Shown here: positions 12,490 through 19,326 of the stretch, piece by piece | Numbering within the stretch: the first letter of the stretch is position 1 | Layout of the letters: the number at the start of each line of letters is the position of its first letter | Source of the DNA: Lentisphaerota bacterium | GTDB taxonomy: Bacteria; Verrucomicrobiota; Lentisphaeria; Victivallales; Victivallaceae | Direction of reading: 5' to 3' | Assembly: GCA_015061545.1 (NCBI GenBank) | Contig: SUWJ01000010.1 | Coordinates: 1-64,000, forward strand | DNA: 64,000 bases | Notes under the pieces: generated by a model | The model's input: the letters and a program-made list of their open reading frames with translations, nothing else | Told to the model about the DNA's origin: nothing | Databases searched by the model: none | Translations under genes and position numbers: made by a program

Positions 12490-12518
12490 TTGCAAATTCA
12501 ACGGAGTTGTGTTATATT
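12490..12518 (+). promoter_or_regulatory. Candidate sigma70-type promoter of the metallo-enzyme operon
   Basis: TTGCAA (12490-12495), 17-nt spacer, TATATT (12513-12518), about 40 nt upstream of the ATG at 12560. Confidence 0.5.
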
Positions 12519-12559: not shown

Positions 12560-12811
12560 ATGGCAGAAAATCGCGTGGCGGTCATCGCTATTATTGTGGA
12601 AAATATGGAATCCGCTTCCGCTGTCAATGCCATATTGCACGAATACAGCTTGTATATCGTAGGGCGCATGGGGCTGCCTTATCGGGAGCGCAGCATAAGT
12701 ATTATCAATATTGTGCTGGATGCGCCGATGGATAAGATCAATGCTGTAGCCGGGCAACTGGGCAGATTGCCGGGGGTAACTGCCAAAGCGGTCTGTTCCA
12801 CTCTCGGGTGA
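12560..12811 (+). CDS. ACT-type iron-only hydrogenase system regulator-like protein (TM1266 family)
   Basis: MAENRVAVIAIIVENMESASAVNAILHEYSLYIVGRMGLPYRERSISIINIVLDAPMDKINAVAGQLGRLPGVTAKAV matches my recollection of the TM1266-type small ACT protein. Confidence 0.78.
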   Translation: MAENRVAVIAIIVENMESASAVNAILHEYSLYIVGRMGLPYRERSISIINIVLDAPMDKINAVAGQLGRLPGVTAKAVCSTLG

Positions 12812-12834
12812 TTGCTGAAAATAACAGAGTTTAT

Positions 12835-12951
12835 ATCCTGACGCCGAAAACCGCGCAAGCGCTTTGAGGCCGAAGCATACGAGCCGGAAAGAAGATTTTT
12901 GTATTCGTAAACCGTACTGGTTCTGCTGTCAGGATCGTTACGGTTTTTTTT
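12835..12951 (+). promoter_or_regulatory. Candidate cis-regulatory RNA with terminator expression platform
   Basis: Perfect 8-bp stem atcctgac (12835-12842)/gtcaggat (12928-12935) encloses several sub-hairpins. A competing stem AAACCGTA (12909-12916)/TACGGTTT (12939-12946) is followed by a T8 run (12944-12951). Confidence 0.6.
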
Positions 12952-12978
12952 GTGCCTCAGAAATAATGGTAAAGTAAA

Positions 12979-14022
12979 ATGGATTGCAGAAGTTTGATCG
13001 GAAAACTGGAAGCTCAGCGGAGTTTGACCCGCGCAGAGTGGAGCTTTTTGTGGAGCAGTTATGCTGCTGCCGACCGGATTTACGCCGCAGAACGGGCGCA
13101 TCGGATCAGCTGCAATATATTCGGTAAAAAGATCTATATCCGCGGAATCGTGGAATTTTCCAACTGCTGTAAAAATGATTGTTTTTACTGCGGGATCCGC
13201 AAATCCAACCGGTTGGTGGCGCGTTACAATTTAAGTGACGAAGTCATCGTTGAATGCTGCCGTTCCGGCTGGGAGAATAATATACGCACCTTTGTTCTTC
13301 AGAGCGGCGAAGTCGGTTCAAAGGCTGTCGAACACATATGTCAGCTGGTGCAGAAGCTCAAAAAAACGTTTCCGGGGTGCGCGGTGACTCTTTCGATTGG
13401 TGAATTGAGTTCATCTGAATATTCCGCGTTGCGGCAGGCCGGGGCGGATCGCTACCTTTTGCGTCACGAAAGTGCCGACGAAAAGCATTACAGCAAGCTG
13501 CATCCGGCATATATGAAGTTGAAAAACCGTCTGGAATGTCTGGAAAATCTGCACCGGATCGGTTTTCAGACCGGTTGCGGCGTTATGCTGGGCAGTCCAT
13601 TTCAGAATGCCGATACATTGGCAGAGGATATGGTTTTTATGCAGAATTTCAAGCCCGAAATGATTGGAGTAGGACCGTTTATTCCGCATAAAGATACGCC
13701 TTTCAAGGATCATCCGGCAGGAACGCTTGAGGATACACTCTTTATGATAAGTCTGTGCCGGATCATGCATCCGGAAGTGCTGCTGCCTGCCACTACGGCG
13801 CTGGGCACATTGCAGCAGGACGGCCGTTTGCTGGGGGTGTTGGCGGGGGCGAATGTTATCATGCCCAATCTGACTCCGCAGTCGGTGCAGGAAAATTATA
13901 ACTTGTACAACAACAAACTCCATACGGACTCGGCTGTAAGCGTTGCTATTGCGCAATTGCAAAGTTCATTGGCTTCGATCGGTTATTCGATAGCTGTCGG
14001 GCGTGGGGATTTCGGAGAATAA
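12979..14022 (+). CDS. hydE: HydE-like radical SAM protein
   Basis: Radical SAM cluster motif CKNDCFYC in EFSNCCKNDCFYCGIRKSN; HydE/BioB-type sequence; next to a TM1266-like gene. Confidence 0.8.
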   Translation: MDCRSLIGKLEAQRSLTRAEWSFLWSSYAAADRIYAAERAHRISCNIFGKKIYIRGIVEFSNCCKNDCFYCGIRKSNRLVARYNLSDEVIVECCRSGWENNIRTFVLQSGEVGSKAVEHICQLVQKLKKTFPGCAVTLSIGELSSSEYSALRQAGADRYLLRHESADEKHYSKLHPAYMKLKNRLECLENLHRIGFQTGCGVMLGSPFQNADTLAEDMVFMQNFKPEMIGVGPFIPHKDTPFKDHPAGTLEDTLFMISLCRIMHPEVLLPATTALGTLQQDGRLLGVLAGANVIMPNLTPQSVQENYNLYNNKLHTDSAVSVAIAQLQSSLASIGYSIAVGRGDFGE

Positions 14023-14025
14023 ATC

Positions 14026-14772
14026 ATGTTGAAACTGGCATTTTATGGTAAAGGCGGCATCGGCAAATCCACTACGGTAAGCAATGTGGCGCTGGCGCTG
14101 GCGGAAAAGAATCTTAAAGTAATGCAGATCGGCTGCGACCCCAAGGCGGATTCCACTTCGGCGCTTCTGGGTGGAAGAAAAATCCCAAGCGTGCTGGAGC
14201 TGATCCGCCGTTACAACGATGATTTTCCGTGGCAGGATATGATAGCTATCGGCGAAAACGGCATCGTTTGTGTGGAAGCCGGCGGACCGGTTCCCGGAAT
14301 GGGCTGCGCCGGGCGGGGGATCATCAATGTACTGGAAAAGCTGCAGAGCAAAGATGTCTACAACCAACTGAATATTGATGTGGTACTGTACGATGTTTTG
14401 GGCGACGTGGTCTGCGGCGGTTTTGCCATGCCCATGCGCAACGGCTATGCAGATAAAGTTTTTATAGTTACATCGGGCGAAAATATGTCCATTTACGCAG
14501 CTGCGAATATTGCACTGGCGCTGAAGAATTTTCAGAGCCGCAATTACGCCGCATTAGGCGGATTTATTCTCAACTCCAGAGATGTTAAAGATGAATTGCA
14601 GAAAGTGCAGGCGCTGGCAGATGATTTTGATTCATCCGTAATCGGAGTGCTGCCGCGCAGTCAGACGGTGCTGGATGCCGAAGAAGCAAAACGGGCGGTT
14701 TTAAGCGTATATCCCGACAGCGCAATGGCGCAATGCTACCGCACGCTGGCGGAGAGTATATTGAATACCTGA
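14026..14772 (+). CDS. NifH-like ATPase/reductase 1
   Basis: P-loop [32 protein letters not shown] and [15 protein letters not shown]: both 4Fe-4S cysteine motifs of the NifH/BchL/CfbC superfamily. Confidence 0.93.
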   Translation: MLKLAFYGKGGIGKSTTVSNVALALAEKNLKVMQIGCDPKADSTSALLGGRKIPSVLELIRRYNDDFPWQDMIAIGENGIVCVEAGGPVPGMGCAGRGIINVLEKLQSKDVYNQLNIDVVLYDVLGDVVCGGFAMPMRNGYADKVFIVTSGENMSIYAAANIALALKNFQSRNYAALGGFILNSRDVKDELQKVQALADDFDSSVIGVLPRSQTVLDAEEAKRAVLSVYPDSAMAQCYRTLAESILNT

Positions 14773-14780
14773 GTTTAACT

Positions 14781-16115
14781 ATGTTAAAGAAGATTAACAA
14801 CTTTGATAAAGCCGATGCTCACGCGCTGAAGATCAGCCAGATTGAGCAGACGCAAATATTTACTCCTGAACTGGAGTTCAACGCGCCTGCGCGGGGGCTG
14901 TGGAACATTGTGCATACTTGTATGCTCATACCACAGCTGCATCAGATCTTTGTTTGCGCTCAGGGCTGTTTGCGGGGGGTGATCCTGACGGCGGCGGAAA
15001 TGAAGGCTATGAACCGTATGAGTTTTGTTGCCATTCAGGAAAACGATCTCTTTGACGGCTCGCTGGAAGAAAATGCCATTGAAGGCGTAACGGCGATTCT
15101 GGATAAAATGGATGCTAAACCCCGTGCCGTGGCGGTATTTTTCAGCTGCGTACAGCTGTTTGCCGGGTGCGATCTTGCTGCGGTATTATCGGAGTTGCGA
15201 TGCCGTTTCCCCAAGATCGATTTTATAGAGTGCCTTATGCACCCGACCATGCGAAAGGCAGGGCTGACTCCGGATGCTTTTATGCGCAAGCAACTCTATG
15301 CACCGCTGCGGGAGTGCAAGGTTCGGCCGCGTTCGGCGGCGATCATCGGCAATGATTTTGCGCTGGCAGAGAGCAGCGAGTTGTTCAGGATACTGGCGGC
15401 AAACGGTTTCAGTTGGAGCGATATAACGTTGTGCCGTAATTACGATGAATACCTGGATCTGGCATCCTGCGAATATTTTATTTCAACTCAACTCAACGCC
15501 AAGGCCGGTTGTGAAGCACTCAGTCGCCGACTGGGGCGCAAGATGCTTTATTTAAAGCAGAGTTACAACTTTGACGAAATACTTGCCAATTACCGTATGA
15601 TGGCGGAAGTCATGCACCTTGAAACAATCGATCTGACAGTTGACCGGACTGAAACGGAGCAAGTTTTGCGGCAGACCGCCGAATGGCTGGACAATATGCC
15701 CATTGCCATAGATTATACTGCAACCTTGCGCAATCTGTCGCTGGCAAGGCTGCTGCTGGATGCAGGATTCAATGTGCAGCGGGTCTATACAGATGTTATC
15801 ACCGCCGAAGAGATTGCCGATCGGGATTACCTTAAAGTGCATTACCCGGATTTGATGATCTATCCCACGCTGCACCCGGCAATGCGGTTTTCGGTCAGAA
15901 AGCCCGGTTCAGGCGATGAATTTCTCTGCATCGGGCAGAAGGCGGCGTGTTATACCGGGTCGCGCCATCTGGTCAATATGGTTTCCGGCGGCAGGTGGTA
16001 CGGTTTTGACGGTATCCGGCAGCTTTGCTGTGCTATGCGTCGGGCTATGGTAGAAATTGTTGACACGGAAGAAGTTATTCAAATCAAGGGTTGGGAGTGC
16101 GAAAGCTGCATATGA
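14781..16115 (+). CDS. Nitrogenase component 1-like alpha (NifD-like) subunit 1
   Basis: Position after NifH-like; Cys motifs HTC...HQIFVCAQGCLRG and VFFSCVQLFAGCD typical of nitrogenase-like component 1; much shorter than true NifD. Confidence 0.8.
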   Translation: MLKKINNFDKADAHALKISQIEQTQIFTPELEFNAPARGLWNIVHTCMLIPQLHQIFVCAQGCLRGVILTAAEMKAMNRMSFVAIQENDLFDGSLEENAIEGVTAILDKMDAKPRAVAVFFSCVQLFAGCDLAAVLSELRCRFPKIDFIECLMHPTMRKAGLTPDAFMRKQLYAPLRECKVRPRSAAIIGNDFALAESSELFRILAANGFSWSDITLCRNYDEYLDLASCEYFISTQLNAKAGCEALSRRLGRKMLYLKQSYNFDEILANYRMMAEVMHLETIDLTVDRTETEQVLRQTAEWLDNMPIAIDYTATLRNLSLARLLLDAGFNVQRVYTDVITAEEIADRDYLKVHYPDLMIYPTLHPAMRFSVRKPGSGDEFLCIGQKAACYTGSRHLVNMVSGGRWYGFDGIRQLCCAMRRAMVEIVDTEEVIQIKGWECESCI

Positions 16116-17287
16116 AAAAGATCGTTTACAGCCAAGGTATATCCTGTTACGCTTCGGATACTGCGGGCGTATGTTCAGCGCTGTTTGAGCTGGGCGGCAT
16201 GACCGTTGTTCACGATGCTTCGGGCTGCAACTCCACCTACGCAACCTTTGACGAGCCGCGCTGGTACAACTCGGAGAGCATGACTTATATATCGGCATTG
16301 ACCGAAAATGATATGGTTTGCGGCAATGATGAAAAGCTGATCGCTGATATTGTCCGCGCCGCAGAAGAATTAAAGCCTGCATTTATTATGCTGACCTGTT
16401 CGGTGATACCGCTGATGACTGGCTGCGATCTGGACGCTATTGCCCGCGAGGTGGAAAATCGCAGCGGTATAACTTCATTTGCTGTATCGCTGGGCGGATT
16501 GAAAAATTATACGCAAGGCATGAACAAAGCATTCTGCCGTCTGGCGGAACGTTTTCTGAAAGCACCGGACAAGGTAAGTAAAATACCGCGGGGAGTGAAT
16601 ATTTTAGGCGCCACCCCGCTGGATCTGCCGCTGAACGGGAGTTTAGAGGCAATAAAAGAGTTTCTTAAACGGAATAACTTTGTGCTGCAAAGCTGCTGGG
16701 CGATGGATTCAACGCTGGAGGAGTTGAGCAATTCAGCTGCTGCGGAGGTAAATTGGGTTATATCTTCAGGCGCGTTGGCTTTGGCTGAATATATGTTTGA
16801 AAAGTACCATATACCTTTTGTCTGCGGCGTACCGCTGGGCAGGGCGGCAGCTGAAGCACTCCGCGTTGACTTGGAAAGAGCGATTGCAGAAAAGTGCAAT
16901 ATTTACAGTTGCGCACGGCGTTGCGCGGCGGCAGAAAAGGAAAAAACGGCAGCGTTTATTATCGGCGAAAGCGTTTTTGCCGGATCTTTAGCTTATACAT
17001 TGCAACAGGAGTGCCGCTGGAATTGCCGGGTCATCGACCCGCTGGCATCGGATCAGGTTCTGCTGGGCGCGGATGATCTGCAATGCAGTACCGAATCTGA
17101 AATCGAAACGGCAATTGCTGATAGTGATGTGGTGGCTGCCGATAATATGTACGAAGTTATCGTGCCGGAAGGTGCTTTGATGCTGAAGATACCTCATACG
17201 GCTTTTTCAGGGCGCTGTTACCGCAAGCAGCAGTTGAATTTGATAGACAGAAAAATTGATTGGGAGAATTTATTATGCAGAAAATAG
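16112..17287 (+). CDS. Nitrogenase component 1-like beta (NifK-like) subunit 1
   Basis: [33 protein letters not shown] and [19 protein letters not shown] overlap with the preceding gene. Confidence 0.8.
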
Positions 17288-18036
17288 CAATATACGGCAA
17301 GGGCGGCATCGGTAAATCCACCGTCACCAGCAACCTGGCGGCGGCAATGGCGCAGCTGGGCAAGCGGGTCATCCAGATCGGCTGCGACCCCAAGGCGGAT
17401 TCCACGGTGAATCTGCTGAAAGGGCAAACGCTGACACCCGTGATGAATTTTATCCGCGAACACGATCGGGAGCCGGAGCGCATCGAAGATATATCCCGAG
17501 TTGGTTTCGGCAATATATTGTGTATCGAAACCGGCGGCCCCACTCCCGGACTGGGTTGTGCGGGACGGGGGATCATCACCACCTTTGCGCTGCTGGATGA
17601 AATGGAGCTGTTTGAGAATTTTCAGCCCGATGTAGTGTTGTACGACGTTTTGGGCGATGTGGTCTGCGGCGGTTTTGCCGCACCGATCCGCGAAGGCTAT
17701 GCCGATAAGATATTGATTGTCACTTCGGGCGAAAAGATGGCGCTTTATGCCGCCAACAACATCAACAGCGCAGTCAACAACTTTGCCGACCGCAATTATG
17801 CCAAGGTGCGGGGCGTGGTGATGAATCGGCGCAATGTGGAGCGCGAAGAAGAAAAAGTACGCAGCTTTGCTGAAAGCAATCAGCTGGAAATCGTGGCAGA
17901 TATTCCCCGCAGCGATGATATTATCCGCTGGGAAGATCAGGGTAAAACGGTTATTGAAGGCGATATAAACTGCGAGGCTTCGCAACGTTTTACCGCGCTG
18001 GCAAAACTGCTTTTAAGCGAAGATAACGGAGCGTGA
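17275..18036 (+). CDS. NifH-like ATPase/reductase 2
   Basis: [64 protein letters not shown]. Confidence 0.94.
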
Positions 18037-18042
18037 AGCACT

Positions 18043-19326
18043 ATGAACAACGCTTACAGTATAAGTGCATCGGAGCTTTATCAGCTGGGCAGGGAAAATA
18101 TACCAGCTGAATTGCAGTCATCGAAAAATCTGATTTACAGCAGTCCAGCTACGCTGGCATTCAATTCACCGGGGGCGCAGGGCTTCGGGGTCAAGCGGGC
18201 AGGGCTGGCGGTGCCTGAATCGGTGATGCTGCTGGTGTCGCCGGGGTGCTGCGGCAGAAATACCGCCGCCTTGGGGCGGGATCGCAAATATGCCGATCGT
18301 TTTTACTATCTTTTGCAGGACGATAACGATATAATTACGGGACGGCATTTGAACCGTATTCCTGAAGCAGTCAAAGAGATTTGCGATTCCCGCGAACAAC
18401 GCCCCAGCGCCGTGATGCTTTGTATAACTTGCGTGGATGCGCTGCTGGGAACCGATATGGAACGGGTCTGCCGCCGCTGTTCGGAAGCAGCCCAAGTGCC
18501 GGTGGTGCCCTGTTATATGTATGCACTTACCCGCGAAGGACGGCTGCCGCCGATGGCATCGGTGCGCCGTTCGGTGTACAGTTTGCTGGAAAAAATGCCG
18601 CGCAAGAGCAACGCTGTAAATATTATGGGATATTTTTCGCCCTTGTGCGATGATTGCGAATTGTATTCTCTGCTGCAGCAAACAGGCGTGAAACATATCC
18701 GTGAAATATCGCGTATGGAATCTTTTGCCGAGTATAAACTTATGGCGGAAGCCAACTTCAATCTGGTGCTGGACAGCGAAGCGCGTTACGCAGCGCAGGA
18801 TTTGAGCGATCGTCTGGGAATACCTTATATTGAATTGGCTAATCTGCACAATATTGATAAGATCCGCAATCAATATGCTGCGCTGGGACGGGCGATCGGC
18901 TGCAATTTTGATGATGAAAAGTTTTATAATGCCGCCGCTGAACAGATAAGAAGTTTTACCGAACGGTTCAAACAGGTGAACTTTGCCGTGGGCGAGTGGC
19001 TGAATGCGGACAGTTTTGAACTGGCGCTGGCGCTGTTGGAAATGGGTTTGAAGGTAGTCGAAATATACGGCACCATCGGCGAAAGAAATTTTGTCTATCT
19101 TAAAAAAATAGCTGCCCTTTCGCCGGATACGCGCATTTACTCCAACCTGTCGCCTTCCATGCTCAATTATTCGGCGGAAAAGAGCAACGTTCAGGCGGTT
19201 ATCGGACAGGATGCCATGTATTATCATCCCGCTAAAGCGGGAATAAAGTGGAACGGCGAACGGCGGCAGTTCGGTTATCAGGCGGTCAACGATCTTTTGA
19301 CGCAGCTTACGGAGGTGTTGAAATGA
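18043..19326 (+). CDS. Nitrogenase component 1-like alpha (NifD-like) subunit 2
   Basis: LLVSPGCCGRN and VMLCITCVDALLGTD motifs; order H-D-K repeated. Confidence 0.78.
   Translation: MNNAYSISASELYQLGRENIPAELQSSKNLIYSSPATLAFNSPGAQGFGVKRAGLAVPESVMLLVSPGCCGRNTAALGRDRKYADRFYYLLQDDNDIITGRHLNRIPEAVKEICDSREQRPSAVMLCITCVDALLGTDMERVCRRCSEAAQVPVVPCYMYALTREGRLPPMASVRRSVYSLLEKMPRKSNAVNIMGYFSPLCDDCELYSLLQQTGVKHIREISRMESFAEYKLMAEANFNLVLDSEARYAAQDLSDRLGIPYIELANLHNIDKIRNQYAALGRAIGCNFDDEKFYNAAAEQIRSFTERFKQVNFAVGEWLNADSFELALALLEMGLKVVEIYGTIGERNFVYLKKIAALSPDTRIYSNLSPSMLNYSAEKSNVQAVIGQDAMYYHPAKAGIKWNGERRQFGYQAVNDLLTQLTEVLK

Follow-up and report, generated by a model that had tools for sequence, protein, structure and literature searches.

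A conserved RNA element predicted to attenuate transcription of [FeFe]-hydrogenase maturation operons in Victivallales and Clostridia

A Lentisphaerota bacterium contig (SUWJ01000010.1, GenBank assembly GCA_015061545.1; the 64,000-nucleotide (nt) stretch analysed, positions 1 to 64,000 of the forward strand, is referred to as the window) carries a conserved RNA element with a local fold at 12829–12884 (+), between a TM1266-family ACT-domain gene and hydE. It is recognised by a covariance model match, covariation and prefix folding, and is a new, previously undescribed family of cis-regulatory RNA. The explanation that we consider probable as a whole is that a bistable RNA attenuates [FeFe]-hydrogenase maturation operons, the folded element together with an intrinsic terminator being the OFF state. 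An earlier note made from the sequence had described the region as a candidate riboswitch-like RNA controlling the nitrogenase-like/hyp operon.

The Rfam 15 covariance models gave no match in the 64-kb window, none at E ≤ 10 within 12600–13100 and, at the element itself, none in any of 19 homologous loci, in agreement with the earlier note's view that the RNA resembles no known riboswitch. The Moco/Wco (molybdenum/tungsten cofactor) RNA model, RF01055, was likewise without a match in the window, in 12600–13100 and in the 19 loci, and no T-box or leader-peptide attenuator was matched by Rfam in the window or in 12600–13100 (leader peptides were not searched systematically). In the literature we found no RNA of this kind described near hyd genes; RNA-discovery papers made no mention of hydEFG, and those on TM1266 were not relevant. 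An ordinary SAM-I riboswitch, matched by Rfam, lies near one maturation operon (L084:1-75, minus strand).

The window hydE has orthologues within the order, and upstream of most of them stands the consensus CCUGA-NNNN-GAAA-(3–26 nt)-UUGA-NNNN-RAAG, followed by a terminator. The conserved domain, CCUGA-4bp-GA-AA...UU-GA-4bp-RAAG, is compact (about 55 nt in the window and about 45–60 nt across members). In the window it consists of a weak P1 (GTTT/GAGC and TAT/ATA, CU/AG), P2 (GCC 12843–12845/GGC 12868–12870), P3 (AAA 12848–12850/TTT 12863–12865) and an apical hairpin (CGC 12852–12854/GCG 12859–12861), with GA-rich internal loops; the covariance model matches it at 12830–12885 with an E of 1e-7, the window copy being part of the training set. 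The comparative data favour P2 and P3 over an internal hairpin, gcttt-gaggccg-aagc, drawn previously, and the domain is not closed by an 8-bp stem, as had been proposed, but is local and shares 12835–12842 with that stem.

Covariation among homologous upstream regions, which had been put forward as one way to check the proposal, is strong. In a sequence-anchored alignment (A2), P2 pair 14–47 is GC 40 times and AU 18 times, pair 15–46 is CG 52 times and UA 10 times, and pair 16–45 occurs as CG, UG, AU and UA. Alignment cells changed on both sides number 53, compared with 16.1 ± 2.9 after shuffling and at most 11 with the partner slid; with divergent members included the count is 56 against 18.5 shuffled, and P3 gains A-U/U-A swaps. 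The pattern used for scanning permitted purine/pyrimidine (R/Y) classes and did not force the choice of G-C versus A-U pairing. The local closing stem P1 scores 8.96 versus 6.19 ± 0.37 after permuting the strands among loci (examples are CATC/GATG, GCATC/GGTGC, TCCGTA/TACGGA and TATCAG/CTGATA), while the linker between the conserved parts is unrelated among members, with a median identity of 27%. The element thus has a conserved structure backed by covariation and lies in an mRNA leader or between genes, and we regard it as almost certainly a structured cis-regulatory RNA. In some divergent members (L215, L216) an internal GA/GA loop has become AA/AA, both G residues having changed in concert, which is a non-canonical exchange.

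A covariance model (R1) searched against 138 genomes of the order found one copy per genome in 27 of them. In the rest of the class and phylum it found no true member; matches in two genomes elsewhere in the phylum (G308, G394) were discarded as they lie inside coding genes. Scanning an exact degenerate pattern over GTDB release r220 yielded, among the matches listed, which are a lower bound, many in Clostridia (Oscillospiraceae, Lachnospiraceae and Ruminococcus, including R. albus AR67) that adjoin a TM1266 gene. Pattern matches in other phyla (Bacteroidota, Proteobacteria and others) have no TM1266 gene beside them and were treated as chance. A further model, R3, trained in part on divergent TM1266-upstream versions, gives some of these up to 33 bits, and since the pattern had selected them, the core score alone is no proof. 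As an unbiased test, model R2 was run by itself on 292 clostridial genomes at E ≤ 0.001: it returned 12 new matches, 11 of which adjoin TM1266 and mostly also hydE, hydF or hydG. Two loci with no hyd gene nearby (L208, L220) were set aside. Divergent versions, some of which had gone into training R3, lie close upstream of TM1266 at 11 of the 34 clostridial TM1266 loci examined, and 16 loci of less related HydE homologues gave no convincing match. There are at least 80 distinct members, in rumen and gut Victivallales and Clostridia; the 80 used here comprise 27 found by searching Victivallales and a further 53. One genome (L117/G469) has an RNA before hydF and a second, divergent copy before TM1266.

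The element almost always adjoins a TM1266 gene and stands ahead of a hydF, hydE, hydG or nifH-like operon. The window order is TM1266, RNA, HydE, NifH-like, two NifDK-like, NifH-like, two NifDK-like, HypF, HypC-like, HypD and HypE; other loci read TM1266-RNA-HydF-HydE-HydG, RNA-TM1266-HydE-HydG-HydF or TM1266-RNA-HydF-HydE-NifH-like. In genera g10, g44 and g48 (G013, G097, G102, G103, G105) the RNA directly precedes a nifH-like gene rather than hydE, and one RNA locus (L116) runs into transporter and HydB/HydA-like genes. This neighbourhood points to maturation of the [FeFe]-hydrogenase H-cluster as the target. In the window the RNA does precede the nitrogenase-like/hyp operon, as first described, but across members it goes with TM1266 and with genes for [FeFe]-hydrogenase maturation in general. 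RNA/TM1266 operons with ATP-binding cassette transporter genes occur at L116, L087, L114 and L136 (one of periplasmic-binding type, some FecCD-like by eye), and the last three loci each contain two TM1266-like stretches.

Two perfect helices described earlier at the window site are present and interleaved as reported: ATCCTGAC (12835–12842, +) is the exact reverse complement of GTCAGGAT (12928–12935, +), and AAACCGTA (12909–12916) that of TACGGTTT (12939–12946). Folding and the frequency of terminators among members identify an intrinsic terminator at 12910–12951 (+), with a stem 12910–12916/12939–12945, an upper stem 12918–12925/12930–12937 that takes up most of the GTCAGGAT strand, and a T run at 12944–12951. 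The T8 run is as noted before, but its first three T lie inside the stem, and the distance from the run to the hydE ATG (12979) is 27 rather than 28 nt. Two perfect 8-bp inverted repeats per 141 nt arise in about 2.2% of base-composition shuffles. The single-sequence fold of the site is merely moderately stable (z = −2.1), and chance is therefore excluded via the homologues rather than by the window copy alone.

Among the members, 72 of 80 have a hairpin and T run after the element, compared with 20 of 80 shuffled sequences. Pairing of the element's 5′ strand (nnCCUGAC), which in the window is the strand of the 8-bp stem that overlaps the conserved CCUGA, with the terminator loop or 3′ arm scores 13.40 versus 11.24 ± 0.33 in between-locus permutations; in the divergent group, pairing of the 3′ strand (GRAAGnnn) with the terminator 5′ arm scores 16.28 versus 12.59 ± 0.91. 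Both long-range helices reach at least 14 in 13 of 87 loci. Folding successive window prefixes gives the long-range pairs a probability of about 0.8–1.0 in transcripts ending at 12936–12942 (−32.4 to −32.9 kcal/mol) and about 0.06 at 12946, from which position the terminator and local element win (−35.2 versus −32.9 kcal/mol). The expression platform is, by prediction, mutually exclusive with the sensing domain, and transcription attenuation of the maturation operons appears very probable. At L061/L066 (G013) the RNA has no terminator; there the linker CATGCCGA...AACTCCC is, by eye, complementary to the Shine-Dalgarno/start region GGGAGGTTCGGCATG, which suggests a putative translational variant.

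In the mechanism that we propose, the element's 5′ strand would pair with the terminator 3′ arm, enclosing its 3′ strand paired with the 5′ arm, to give one long antiterminator as the alternative to element plus terminator. Without effector, this long-range helix would let transcription through (ON); an effector stabilising the local element would preclude the antiterminator, so that the terminator forms and hydE–hypE are switched off. As 12835–12842 is common to the local element and the long-range helix, stabilising the former should promote termination, and the OFF logic seems likely on these modelled folds.

Several observations weigh against this picture. The direction of the switch is an inference, and the permutation tests leave some relatedness between sequences in place. 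Both long-range helices fall below 14 in 21 of 87 loci. The full-length window RNA prefers the terminator without any effector, which fits a simple leaky terminator. A few members, such as L061, lack a terminator, and L061 may, by eye, mask the start codon instead. Finally, the near-perfect linkage to a single protein gene would be unusual for a metabolite riboswitch.

What would stabilise the element is probably one of two kinds of effector. We give about an even chance to a riboswitch whose small-molecule or ion ligand reflects the status of the H-cluster or of hydrogenase, which makes this the most likely option. Second to it, and a less probable though serious candidate, is the TM1266 protein itself, which would bind and stabilise the element and so, as an RNA-binding attenuation protein, bring about termination in autogenous or operon-level feedback. 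The RNA is genetically linked to TM1266, which adjoins nearly every member just upstream or just downstream, and co-occurs with it: all 12 RNA-positive clostridial genomes have TM1266 over cut-off, compared with 177 of 292 overall, and four genomes with the RNA alone before hydF or hydE encode TM1266 elsewhere. TM1266 is named a regulator, although the family model spans just an approximately 75-residue domain with no separate DNA-binding part. ACT domains, however, usually bind small molecules, most of the 34 clostridial TM1266 loci have no recognisable RNA, and the linkage is also expected if TM1266 is merely a member of the regulon. The co-occurrence fits a TM1266-binding leader as well as a riboswitch whose regulon includes TM1266.

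The earlier note had the 8-bp helix close an aptamer, with ligand favouring this helix over the terminator as an ON switch. The helix indeed has no mismatch in the window and prevails in transcripts that end short of the full terminator, and mutually exclusive folds coupled to a terminator are predicted here too. However, the most conserved nucleotides lie in the local element, which uses the same CCUGA and has a covarying closing stem of its own, and among divergent members it is the element's 3′ strand with which the terminator competes, the 5′-strand helix there not clearly exceeding permutations. We consider the ON switch improbable: the 8-bp helix reads as the antiterminator, and the predicted logic is inverted. 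A conserved RNA with a terminator does lie where attenuation had been placed, after the ACT-domain gene and ahead of the 11 genes downstream, but its sensing domain is the local element. Least likely of all is a constitutive, effector-free terminator whose sole role would be to keep expression of the downstream genes below that of TM1266. Such a terminator is in keeping with the full-length fold, but it leaves unexplained why, amid unrelated linkers, the CUGA/GAAA/UUGA/AAG core is near-invariant and P2 covaries in both Victivallales and Clostridia.

The RNA-linked operons differ in what follows TM1266/HydF/HydE, namely HydG or a NifH-like/NifDK-like cluster (window 12979–25017; L039–L073, L077–L219). 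A NifH-like gene is found at 49 RNA loci and HydG at 22, with none carrying both. In a set of 34 RNA-positive genomes, mostly of the NifH type, 31 encode an [FeFe]-hydrogenase domain and just one has HydG over cut-off. This suggests a HydG-independent route of H-cluster assembly in which the NifH-like cluster appears to replace HydG. Acetogens with no identified hydG are known, and HydE and HydF give about 1% activation without HydG (PMC9431212); we found no literature report of a NifH-like replacement. Because operons of the HydG type and those with NifH-like genes have the RNA in common, the signal that it responds to is probably not one confined to HydG chemistry. We tentatively propose that the RNA serves as a readout of H-cluster assembly, either by directly binding a metabolite or ion connected with assembly or by way of TM1266, which would then be the first ACT-domain regulator to bind RNA, both in HydG-type operons and in those with NifH/NifDK-like genes (plus HypFCDE in Victivallales) in place of HydG.

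All window genes of the locus lie on the plus strand. The TM1266-family protein, a putative [FeFe]-hydrogenase system regulator (TIGR03959/PF21699, over the Pfam and NCBIfam cut-offs; solved relative 2NZC), occupies 12560–12811, its start taken at 12560. Upstream of it, a sigma-70-like promoter candidate, TTGCAA-17-TATATT (12490–12518, +), matches the consensus at 9 of 12 positions; it is a consensus match only, the scan having found 3 where 1.4 were expected, about chance level. HydE, the H-cluster radical SAM (S-adenosylmethionine) maturase, follows at 12979–14022 (TIGR03956, 480 bits against a cut-off of 254.6). The NifH-like proteins 1 and 2 (PF00142) are at 14026–14772 and 17272–18036, and the NifDK-like proteins 1 to 4 (PF00148) at 14760–16115, 16109–17287, 18043–19326 and 19323–20372. 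HypF (TIGR00143) is at 20366–22687, and a HypC-like open reading frame of 62 residues with an MCVG start at 22779–22967, named from its sequence signature and position. HypD (TIGR00075) at 22964–23995 and HypE (TIGR02124) at 24016–25017 complete the series. Starts are inferred for NifH-like protein 2, NifDK-like proteins 1, 2 and 4, and HypF.

For H2-producing bacteria of the rumen and gut, Ruminococcus albus among them, a previously undescribed RNA that regulates [FeFe]-hydrogenase maturation offers a handle on the control of H-cluster synthesis and on the role of the long-unassigned TM1266 family, and its approximately 55-nt element gives screens for ligands or for TM1266 binding a defined target. 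Being shared, the RNA also draws attention to the NifH-like cluster, which appears to take the place of HydG, the enzyme from which the CO and CN ligands usually come.

Among known systems, the element can be set beside transcription-terminating OFF riboswitches such as SAM-I and FMN (flavin mononucleotide), with which it shares a structured conserved domain before an intrinsic terminator, a mutually exclusive antiterminator and a location ahead of biosynthesis or maturation genes; it differs in having no Rfam sequence or structure match and usually one copy per genome with one target operon. Protein-binding attenuator leaders of the TRAP and PyrR type would be similar in that a protein encoded next to the RNA may exert feedback, whereas TM1266 is not known as an RNA binder. 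The Moco/Wco motif is likewise tied to metal-cofactor metabolism, but the present RNA has no Rfam match to it and a core of about 45 nt that appears to be built differently. Wco copies have been reported near hydrogenase genes (PMC9481103). Finally, the yjdF motif riboswitch is reported to be almost exclusively tied to one gene of unknown function (PMC4793209); to that extent it resembles the near-exclusive linkage to TM1266 seen here, while the two RNAs are unrelated by Rfam search and the operons linked to ours are those of H-cluster maturation.
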